From Kytococcus sedentarius DSM 20547 (GTDB taxonomy: Bacteria > Actinomycetota > Actinomycetes > Actinomycetales > Dermatophilaceae): 64,000 nucleotides of DNA. The DNA is taken from contig NC_013169.1 of NCBI RefSeq assembly GCF_000023925.1, positions 62,001-126,000 of the forward strand. Reading direction: 5' to 3'. The notes beneath the pieces are model-generated. The model was not told the DNA's origin, did no database searches, and worked only from the letters and a program-made list of their open reading frames with translations. The position numbers and the translations under genes were made by a program. Shown in pieces: positions 8,480 to 11,707 of this stretch. Every line of letters starts with the position of its first letter. Position 1 is the first letter of the stretch.

Positions 8480-8498
8480 CTAGGGCGTGTCTCCCATA
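8480..8498 (+). repeat. Left terminal repeat plus CTAG flank of IS5-family element
   Basis: CTAGGGCGTGTCTCCCATA here is the exact reverse complement of 11689-11707. CTAG is its own complement, so it can be counted as target duplication or as part of the repeat; 8484-8498 is the repeat proper. Confidence 0.9.
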
Positions 8499-8535
8499 GA
8501 CAGTGAGGGCCTGTGCTGATGGGAGAATTGACGCT

Positions 8536-8874
8536 GTGCGATACGTGTTGACTGCTGATCATGAAATCCCTGACCGCGCGCCATTGGCGATCAAGCCCGG
8601 GGATGTTGTTCAGGTCGGAGATTGGGATACAGAGTGGCCCGCTTTCGTATTCGTGACAGCATCGCAGGGGACGGGATGGGTGCCCGGACGTCACCTCGAT
8701 ATTGACGGGTGCGTCGGCACTTGTCGCGTCGCATATGACACGACCGAGCTGCCGGCTGTCGCGGGCGAACGCGTCGATGTCATTGAGGACGATGCCGAGA
8801 GCGGCTGGTCCTGGTGTCGGAACTCTGGTGGTCGTGAGGGATGGATCCCGCACCGCGTCCTTACTGTTGCGTGA
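8536..8874 (+). CDS. SH3-domain protein, transposon passenger gene
   Basis: A 112-residue cytosolic protein with two SH3-like stretches: one centred on LAIKPGDVVQVGDWDTEWPA with GTGWVPGRHL, the other on AVAGERVDVI with GWSWCRNSGGREGWIPHRVL. Both follow the pattern of variant bacterial SH3 domains, in which a Gly-Trp-Ile/Val-Pro strand ends the fold. I chose the GTG at 8536 because GGGAGA lies 9 bases upstream; an in-frame GTG at 8503 would overlap the transposon end. The gene converges on the IS5 transposase with only 4 bases between stop codons, inside the terminal repeats, so it travels with the element. No catalytic motif is visible; binding to a peptide or ligand is the only reasonable inference. 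Confidence 0.75.
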   Translation: MRYVLTADHEIPDRAPLAIKPGDVVQVGDWDTEWPAFVFVTASQGTGWVPGRHLDIDGCVGTCRVAYDTTELPAVAGERVDVIEDDAESGWSWCRNSGGREGWIPHRVLTVA

Positions 8875-9544
8875 CCGATCATCGCACGCGTAGCCAGGTG
8901 AGGATGGCGCAGAGGGTGACGCCGGCGCGGTAGGTGATCGCGAGTTTGTCGAACCGGGTAGCGATGCCGCGCCACTGCTTGGCGAGGGCGAAGAACCGCT
9001 CGACGACGTTGCGGCCCTTGTAGGCGTCGGCGTCCAGTCCGGGCGGGCGTCCGCCTCGACTGCCGCGACGTTTGCGGGCGGCGGCCTGGTCGCGCTTGTC
9101 AGGGATCACGGCCTTGATCCCGCGACGACGCAGTTCGCTGCGAATCACACCGGTCGCGTAGGCGCGGTCGGCGAGCACGGCATCCGGACGAGTGCGTGGC
9201 CGGCCCCGGCCCAGCCGGGGGACGTGGATCTGGGCGAGCACCTCGGTCAGCATCGCGCCGTCGTTGCGCTGCCCGCCGGTGACGATCATCGCGAGTGGTC
9301 GGCCGTGGCCGTCGACGGCCTGGTGGATCTTCGTGGTCAGGCCGCCGCGAGAGCGCCCAATGCCATGACCGGGCGGCTCAACGTCGTGCCAGGGCAGATT
9401 CTTGTGATTTGATCCCGCCCCCTGTGTCCTGCTCGGGGCGGGTGGTGTTCGTCGCGTGCTGATGCGCACGAGCGATCGTCGCGTCGACAGACACCGCCCA
9501 GTCGATCTTCCCGGCGGCATCGGCCTCGGCGAGGATCTCCACCA

Positions 9545-9553
9545 GCACGCGAT
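9545..9553 (+). repeat. 9-bp target duplication of the IS256-family element (second copy 11405-11413)
   Basis: GCACGCGAT at 9545-9553 is repeated exactly at 11405-11413. A duplication of 8-9 bp is typical for IS256-family insertion, and the two copies abut the imperfect inverted repeats of the inner element. Confidence 0.9.
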
Positions 9554-9690
9554 GAGGAATGATCAGAACCTGTGGATGGCCCTCGGCGGGGTGACGTGAA
9601 GCGGGCGCACCTTCCCGAGGATGATCTACACGGAATCGAAGTTCTGGATCAGGACCGGCGTTGACGCGTTGGTACGGGAAGGTACGCCCA

Positions 9691-10971
9691 ATGCTCAAGG
9701 TAGTCCACGACGCCGAGACCTCCAACGACGACAGCACCGACGGCACCGGCACGGCCGGTGGGTCGCTGCTGGATGAGATCGTGCGCGACGGCGCACGGCA
9801 GATGCTCGCGGCGGCGTTGCAGGCCGAGGTCGGTGCCTACATCGAGGCGCACGCCCACGAGGTCGACGAGGACGGGCACCGGTTGGTGGTGCGCAACGGG
9901 TACCACCAGCCGAGGGAGGTGACGACGTCCTCGGGTGCGGTGCCGGTGACCGCGCCGCGCATCAACGACAAGCGCGTCGACGAAGCGACGGGCGAGCGGG
10001 CGCGGTTTGCCTCGGCGATCCTGCCCGCCTGGGCGCGCAAGTCCCCGCAGGTGACGGAGGTGCTGCCGCTGCTCTACCTCCACGGGCTGTCTTCCAACGA
10101 CTTCGCGCCGGCGTTGGAGCAGTTCCTCGGCTCGTCGGCGGGGCTGTCGGCGGCCACGATCACCCGACTGACCAAAGACTGGCAGCACGAGGCCCGCTCG
10201 TTCAACGAACGCTCCCTGACGGATGCCGACTATGTGTACGTGTGGGTCGACGGGATCCACCTGAAGGTGCGCCTGGAGCAGGACAGGGTGTGCCTGCTGG
10301 TGATGATCGGTGTGCGCGCGGACGGCCACAAGGAGCTGATCGCCCTACAGGATGGGCACCGGGAGTCGACCGAGTCGTGGGCTGACCTGCTGCGGGATTG
10401 CAAACGCCGCGGCATGAGAGACCCAGTCCTGGCCGTCGGCGACGGCGCGCTGGGCTTCTGGGCCGCCGTGCGGCAGGTGTTCCCCGACACTCGCGAACAG
10501 CGTTGCTTGTTTCACAAAATCTCGAACGTGCTCAATGCGCTGCCGAAGTCGGCGCAGCCGGGCGCGAAGAAGGCCCTCGCCGAGATCTGGCAGGCCGAAG
10601 ACAAGGAGCACGCCCGGTCAGGGGCGAGGGCGTTCGCCAGCGAGTACGGGAAGAAGTGGCCCAAGGCGGCCGCGAAGATCACCGACGACCTTGACGTGCT
10701 GCTGGAGTTCTACGACTACCCCGCCGAGCACTGGATCCACCTGCGCACCACGAACCCCATCGAATCTACGTTCGCCACGGTGCGACTTCGGCAGCGCGTG
10801 ACCAAGGGACCCGGCTCCCGCGCCGCCGGGGTCGCCATGGCGTTCAAGCTCATCGAATCCGCCCAGACCCGATGGCGCGCCGTGAACGCACCGCACTTGG
10901 TCGCCCTCGTCCGCGCCGGTGCGGTGTTCGAGAAGGGCAAACTGATCGAGCGCACCCAGGGGGCAGCATGA
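9691..10971 (+). CDS. IS256-family (Mutator-type) transposase
   Basis: A 426-residue DDE transposase. The catalytic acids sit in YVWVDGIHLKV, AVGDGALGFW and RTTNPIESTFATVRLR. QREVT-like early motifs (GYHQPREVTTSSGAVPV) and the CLFHKISNVLNALP helix, with the C of the family C-x2-H signature, are also present. The length is normal and no frameshift is visible, so it may be active. The start at 9691 follows GGGAAGG with an 8-base spacer; a TTG at 9661 is in frame but lacks a ribosome site. Its stop overlaps the ATG of the VOC gene in the arrangement ATGA, which predicts translational coupling. Confidence 0.94.
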   Translation: MLKVVHDAETSNDDSTDGTGTAGGSLLDEIVRDGARQMLAAALQAEVGAYIEAHAHEVDEDGHRLVVRNGYHQPREVTTSSGAVPVTAPRINDKRVDEATGERARFASAILPAWARKSPQVTEVLPLLYLHGLSSNDFAPALEQFLGSSAGLSAATITRLTKDWQHEARSFNERSLTDADYVYVWVDGIHLKVRLEQDRVCLLVMIGVRADGHKELIALQDGHRESTESWADLLRDCKRRGMRDPVLAVGDGALGFWAAVRQVFPDTREQRCLFHKISNVLNALPKSAQPGAKKALAEIWQAEDKEHARSGARAFASEYGKKWPKAAAKITDDLDVLLEFYDYPAEHWIHLRTTNPIESTFATVRLRQRVTKGPGSRAAGVAMAFKLIESAQTRWRAVNAPHLVALVRAGAVFEKGKLIERTQGAA

Positions 10972-11372
10972 CCACCCCGCCGATCGGATCCTTGCACCAC
11001 GTGGAGCTGTGGGTCCCCGACATCGTCCGGGCCACGACCCACTGGGGCTGGCTCCTCGGCGAGCTTGGCTACCAACCGTTCCAGGACTGGCCCGGCGGCC
11101 GAAGCTGGAGGCTCGCTGACACCTACATCGTCATCGAGGAATCACCGGACCTGACCGGTCGCGAACACGACCGGCAGCGTCCCGGGCTGAACCACCTCGC
11201 CTTCCATGCCGGGGACCGCGCCAAGGTCGACGAATTCGCCGACACCGCCCATGCGAACGGTTGGACCCTGCTCTTCGCCGACAAGCACCCCCACGCCGGA
11301 GGAGCCGACAGCTACGCCGCCTACCTCGCAAACTATGACGGCTACGAGGTCGAACTCATAGCACACGACTGA
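10968..11372 (+). CDS. VOC-superfamily protein (glyoxalase/bleomycin-resistance fold), IS256 passenger
   Basis: 134 residues spanning one VOC module with its beta-alpha-beta-beta-beta units: SLHHVELWVPDI at the start, LNHLAFHAGD in the middle and YEVELIAHD at the end. The metal-ligand positions of this superfamily are occupied (His in LHHVEL, His in HLAFH, Glu in EVELI), so a metal-dependent reaction or drug-binding role is feasible. Relatives include glyoxalase I, fosfomycin thiol transferases and bleomycin-binding proteins; which applies here is unknown. Its ATG overlaps the transposase stop and its end is 32 bases from the IS terminus, marking it as transposon cargo. Expression probably depends on the transposase transcript. 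Confidence 0.85.
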   Translation: MTTPPIGSLHHVELWVPDIVRATTHWGWLLGELGYQPFQDWPGGRSWRLADTYIVIEESPDLTGREHDRQRPGLNHLAFHAGDRAKVDEFADTAHANGWTLLFADKHPHAGGADSYAAYLANYDGYEVELIAHD

Positions 11373-11688
11373 AATCGGTCATCCACAGGTCTTGACGATT
11401 GCTCGCACGCGATCCCACGTACCGTCACCGGCATAGCGGCGGTGCCGCTTCCACACCGTCTGCCACGGCCCGAACTGCTCGCGGGGCAGATCACGCCACG
11501 GAATCCCGGTGCGGAACCGGTACGCGATGCCCTCCACAACGCGCCTGTTGTCGCCGAACGGATGACCACGCCGCCCCGAATTCGAGGGCAGCAACGGCTC
11601 GATCCGCTCCCACTGCTCGTCCGTGAACACCCGATACCGCGAACCCGTCGACCTCACCCAACCAGCATCCCGCGAGCCTCACCGACCA

Positions 11689-11707
11689 TATGGGAGACAC
11701 GCCCTAG
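11689..11707 (-). repeat. Right terminal repeat plus CTAG flank of IS5-family element
   Basis: Exact reverse complement of 8480-8498. The hmp start codon follows 10 bases after its last base. Confidence 0.9.

Follow-up and report, generated by a model that had tools for sequence, protein, structure and literature searches.

The window analysed here, a stretch of 64,000 nucleotides from Kytococcus sedentarius DSM 20547, holds at 8480-11707 what appeared to be one insertion sequence (IS) inside another, and each layer contains a gene other than the transposase. This raises the question of how the nest was assembled, and whether the two additional genes are cargo of the elements that enclose them. 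A sequence-only reading had proposed an IS256-family unit within an IS5-family unit. We confirmed this nest, with the IS256-family unit (9554-11404) sitting within the transposase of the IS5-family unit (8484-11703), and the repeats, the duplications, the in-frame rejoining and the profile matches all agreed. The features are as follows.

8480-8483, no strand: CTAG, left flank of the outer IS5 unit (target duplication); from the sequence, CTAG on both sides, CTAC in the sister species
8484-8498, plus strand: left terminal inverted repeat of the IS5 unit (GGCGTGTCTCCCATA); perfect repeat, and the motif also ends IS5 relatives
8503-8874, plus strand: SH3-domain passenger gene of the outer unit, in convergent orientation to the IS5 transposase; Pfam SH3_2, 1.1e-12
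8879-9553, minus strand: 3' part of the IS5 transposase (DDE domain; second frame); DDE_Tnp_1, 1.2e-18; NF033580 IS5
9545-9553, no strand: 9-bp target duplication GCACGCGAT, left copy; from the sequence
9554-9581, plus strand: left inverted repeat of the IS256 unit; inverted repeat, second genomic copy
9661-10971, plus strand: IS256 transposase (likely ATG 9691); Transposase_mut, 1.1e-63; NF033543, 6e-88
10968-11372, plus strand: VOC (glyoxalase-fold) passenger gene of the inner unit; Glyoxalase_4, 9.6e-13; second copy, independent elements
11377-11404, minus strand: right inverted repeat of the IS256 unit; inverted repeat, second genomic copy
11405-11413, no strand: 9-bp target duplication GCACGCGAT, right copy; from the sequence
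11414-11657, minus strand: 5' part of the IS5 transposase (DUF4096 domain), severed by the inner unit; DUF4096, 1.1e-28; in-frame rejoin
11689-11703, minus strand: right terminal inverted repeat of the IS5 unit; perfect inverted repeat
11704-11707, no strand: CTAG, right flank of the outer IS5 unit; from the sequence

The outer ends (8480-8498 and 11689-11707) were 100% complementary over 19 nt, comprising the 15-bp inverted repeats and CTAG, while the inner repeats (9554-9581 and 11377-11404) were complementary at 22 of 28 nt. A perfect 9-bp duplication, GCACGCGAT, borders the inner unit at 9545-9553 and 11405-11413, and excision of 1860 bp brought the IS5 transposase back in frame as GTWDRV-LVEILAE. 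Pfam and NCBIfam profiles matched the IS5 transposase (in two overlapping frames), the IS256 transposase, the VOC protein (Glyoxalase_4) and the SH3 protein. The outer unit has the IS5-type DDE transposase and the short inverted repeats with a CTAG/YTAR target that mark the IS5 family, and the inner unit has the Mutator/IS256-type transposase, the imperfect terminal inverted repeats and the 8-9 bp class of target duplication that mark IS256.

A clear order of events had also been proposed, together with a search for the empty IS5 site in related genomes. This site was present in a sister Kytococcus, in which the malic-enzyme/hmp junction is uninterrupted, with 79% identity across the site and CTAC replacing the window's CTAG. 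Given this empty site, and with the IS5 transposase broken by the IS256 unit, the proposed order stands: an IS5-family element bearing the SH3-domain gene inserted first, at a CTAG that lies between the malic-enzyme gene and the gene for flavohaemoprotein (hmp), and an IS256-family element bearing the VOC gene inserted second, breaking the IS5 transposase.

The inner unit, as the sequence-only reading had suggested looking for, occurs elsewhere in the genome. A second copy (C1:631574-633424) ends exactly as in the nest, differs at 3 of 1851 bp and has its own 9-bp duplication, ACCAGGATG; the gene that it splits has an open frame once the flanks are joined. That gene, interrupted by the second copy at L031 2575-4425, has a HELGH motif and looked ImmA/IrrE-like by eye. 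Since this copy shares the borders of the nested one but not its 9-bp duplication, and since the outer site is empty in the sister species, a chance arrangement is excluded; since it has the same ends and its own duplication, the VOC gene belongs to the mobile inner unit. Scanning species genomes with a pattern joining the VOC gene and the right repeat yielded related IS256+VOC elements, among them those of Nocardioides glacieisoli (L096; transposase 84%, VOC 67%, own exact 9-bp duplication) and Streptomyces canus (L093; transposase 68%, VOC 61%, own exact duplication). Further such elements are L089, L095, L175 and L187, the last two from a survey of presumed Streptomyces, and the other elements from the pattern scan have damaged or unresolved ends. 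The pattern matches L091, L094 and L097 were left out of the element count; L091 (7417-7600, Mobilicoccus caccae) is a scrambled remnant in which an IS256 right repeat and the two ends of a VOC gene survive. In L095 (1881-5421, Streptomyces sp. MZ04), about 1.7 kb of other DNA interrupts the VOC gene. The inner unit thus has the property that defines a transporter IS, a gene not for transposition within its ends, present in copies with their own duplications, and these copies demonstrate, at the level of sequence, that the VOC unit is mobile as a whole.

We further examined the VOC gene itself, the ATG of which overlaps the stop codon of the IS256 transposase (ATGA, 10968-10971). Between Kytococcus and Nocardioides, synonymous divergence was 0.753 for the transposase and 0.755 for VOC, and given this equality the two genes probably travelled together; in other element pairs the two values agree less well. 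With a dN/dS of about 0.3 in the same comparison, the VOC gene bears the codon signature of purifying selection. The candidate metal-ligand positions His10/11, Glu57, His67/76 and Glu127/129 were conserved in 35-36 of 36 homologues, so that the protein has conserved His and Glu residues that could bind metal, as in the metal enzymes of the VOC superfamily; its nearest solved structure is 3ct8. None of the fetched loci examined for VOC homologues from the search carried IS256 ends. In one locus (L037, 1898-2770; G052), a single long frame joins an apparent Nudix domain to a VOC homologue behind it.

The transposase tree placed the VOC-bearing elements in two well supported separate clades, both of which also include elements with no cargo or with other cargo, and the element-borne VOC proteins formed two clusters on the best VOC tree. 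Both observations are in line with two captures of VOC by two IS256 lineages, as against a single capture after which elements lost or exchanged their cargo. However, a single origin was not rejected (AU p = 0.34), and the stop/start overlap and the position of the gene are common to both VOC groups. We regard a double capture as quite possible, at somewhat under an even chance.

When relatives were compared, the cargo between the transposase stop and the distal repeat proved to vary in each of the two IS lineages, and this stretch can be described as a variable cargo slot. The slot takes up about 15-37 bp in cargo-less relatives (31-37 bp in IS256, 15-35 bp in IS5); in inner-unit relatives it was measured between the transposase stop and the right repeat. 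In presumed mycobacteria, about 25 IS256 elements had a slot of 32-34 bp and two carried cargo, and in presumed Streptomyces the slot was at least 388 bp in about 20 of 25 resolvable IS256 elements and 36-37 bp in four, these counts being of elements and not of independent events, as several copies share a genome. The IS256 slot held VOC, GNAT, HAD, RibD_C, alpha/beta hydrolase, limonene-epoxide-hydrolase-like and MDMPI genes, as well as HEAT, methyltransferase, AAA kinase, a DUF2773-like group and unknowns; in L171 and L178 the slot is long and shows no clear gene. Exact duplications confirm the borders of five of these cargo elements, of 9 bp for L116, L120 (LEH), L177 (MDMPI) and L196 (AAA kinase) and of 8 bp for L117 (HAD), and an 8/9 match was seen for L125 (RibD_C) and L164 (GNAT).

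Similarly, four IS5 relatives (L133, L148, L136 and L156) carry other cargo in the slot corresponding to that of SH3. In two IS5 elements of the sister Kytococcus the slot encodes a membrane protein of 87 aa and an unknown protein of 139 aa, and in other IS5 family members it holds AHSA1-type or DUF2975 plus HTH genes. A related IS5 element (L155, G741:C1:3425150) has an IS110-like transposase frame, seen by eye, in its right part and is possibly another nest. The stacking of two cargo-bearing ISs had been called unusual, a view to be tempered by the finding that cargo often occupies this place in the Streptomyces IS256 lineage and recurs in the IS5 lineage. Cargo is probably gained, swapped and lost in the slot behind the transposase while the element ends stay constant.

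An ATGA or GTGA overlap of the transposase stop with the cargo start was found for 13 of 21 same-strand cargo genes, from seven unrelated families, with the proviso that the caller of open reading frames uses the 5'-most start and some start-codon calls and overlaps are possibly artefacts. The annotated starts in two public records (L089 and L090) fit this type of overlap. Through it, we infer, the translation of same-strand cargo is probably coupled to that of the transposase.

How is cargo captured? Judging from a few elements, the most likely route is the use of a further repeat, in which the transposase would skip its own distal repeat and use the next similar repeat past a neighbouring gene. 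In L125 a transposase tail and the start of a repeat flank the cargo at both sides, L123 retains a decayed inner right repeat, and L120 is counted with them among the hints of capture (traces of an inner repeat or of a duplicated transposase tail). Moreover, in L149 (1190-3528; G741) two genes, one for an ArsR-type regulator and one AHSA1-like (287 aa), lie between an intact IS5 right repeat and a further IS5 repeat with TAG, making this locus a possible capture intermediate. In L105 (1518-3793; G000:C1, about 2448.0-2450.3 kb), an IS5 directly adjoins a transposase-less unit with IS5-type ends and CTAG; this unit has two genes (156 and 135 aa, no Pfam match at 0.01) and looks like a mobile insertion cassette. 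A decayed inner repeat was rejected as a general signature of capture, as in 28 cargo elements the 45 nt that follow the stop resembled the repeat no more than control windows did overall, and L123 alone clearly exceeded them. The lack of a general inner-repeat trace, like the occurrence of the same VOC in distant transposase clades, would suit the entry of cargo through homologous recombination of one element with a related one, or through insertion of a cassette. We hold this route to be possible but less likely than not, given the traces in L123, L125 and L120 and the inner repeat that is intact in L149.

The claim that each layer has a passenger gene held in full for VOC, which is present in a second copy and in independent elements; for SH3 it held in that the gene is bracketed by the outer repeats, with a single IS5 copy known. 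No second SH3-bearing IS5 copy was found in 58 relatives by DNA comparison. A survey of 396 genomes of the order plus plasmids yielded only SH3 homologues at about 60-70% identity, and those checked lie outside IS5 ends. Likewise, no second copy of the outer unit was found in the 2.79-Mb genome, in which the outer-end 16-mer GGGCGTGTCTCCCATA matches perfectly only at the two ends of the nest. The nearest relatives of the outer unit have transposases 74-77% identical, are cargo-less and have 16 bp between the transposase and the end of the element. Judged by its homologues, the SH3 protein probably begins near GTG 8536 and not at 8503.

It is unlikely that the SH3 gene is host DNA caught between two IS5 ends by deletion or recombination of two IS5 copies, so that the outer unit would not be one element. 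Such an origin would agree with the one known copy and with the adjacent IS5 ends at L105 in the same genome, but the repeats are perfect with CTAG at either side, the empty site of the sister species has no SH3, and other genes lie between the same kind of ends in four IS5 relatives. Given the perfect repeats with CTAG, the empty sister site and the relatives that are cargo-less or have other cargo at that place, we assign SH3 to the outer unit. Although known from one copy, this layer is very probably the same kind of cargo element as the inner unit, and the SH3 gene would be mobile beyond that copy. As for VOC, its fixed place, its stop/start overlap, its purifying selection and its transposase-like synonymous divergence in some pairs would also fit a working part of the IS256-lineage transposition system, such as a regulator, which we consider very improbable because cargo-less relatives are flanked by perfect 9-bp duplications and occur in many copies, unrelated genes occupy the same place in other IS256 relatives, and VOC relatives with the same conserved residues are common outside IS256 elements. 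Taken together, these results make it highly probable that two transporter ISs were nested in two steps, with the contents of the cargo slot gained, swapped or lost in both lineages.

As a probable pair of transporter ISs, the nest is of an already known kind, with its own transposase and ends plus a gene unrelated to transposition (PMC9330008, PMC3129680), and transporter-type cargo has been noted for several IS families (PMC7986276). The elements described here share these traits, but their cargo differs between elements at one fixed place behind the transposase, often overlapping its stop, and this variable, often overlapping slot is the less expected part. The PubMed Central literature, with ISfinder and subscription papers outside the search, gave no description of such a slot in IS256, and a literature search for IS256 with passenger genes in Streptomyces returned nothing specific. 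The ISRer3/IS666-like actinomycete members of IS256 resemble the inner unit in 9-bp duplications and in a transposase region of about 75% DNA identity, whereas the relatives in presumed mycobacteria are mostly cargo-less. The outer unit shares the two-frame transposase, the GGGCGTGTCTCC ends and the CTAG target with the NF033580 group of IS5, and differs by the extra gene between the transposase and the distal repeat. ISPst2 (ISL3) and ISArsp12 (IS481) are simple ISs with passenger genes, in their case regulator and permease cargo (PMC6305408); they are like the nest in this respect but differ in family and cargo. Mobile insertion cassettes resemble the L105 unit, with IS5 ends and no transposase, while the nest itself has transposases. 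Integron gene cassettes are single small genes of varying kind at one place, and the slot resembles them by analogy, although the elements here are without integrase or attC and are moved by DDE transposases. We give about an even chance to the wider reading that two unrelated actinomycete IS lineages act as cassette carriers, whose slot takes up, swaps and loses small genes under coupled translation and gives an integron-like repertoire most developed in Streptomyces.

How passenger ISs gain cargo and keep up its expression is not settled in the papers cited. These lineages include elements without cargo, elements that differ in their cargo and candidate intermediates of capture, which would allow a direct comparison of capture routes and of selection on cargo. 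Our findings suggest that small enzyme genes of actinomycetes may move on very small elements that are annotated merely as a transposase and a hypothetical protein.
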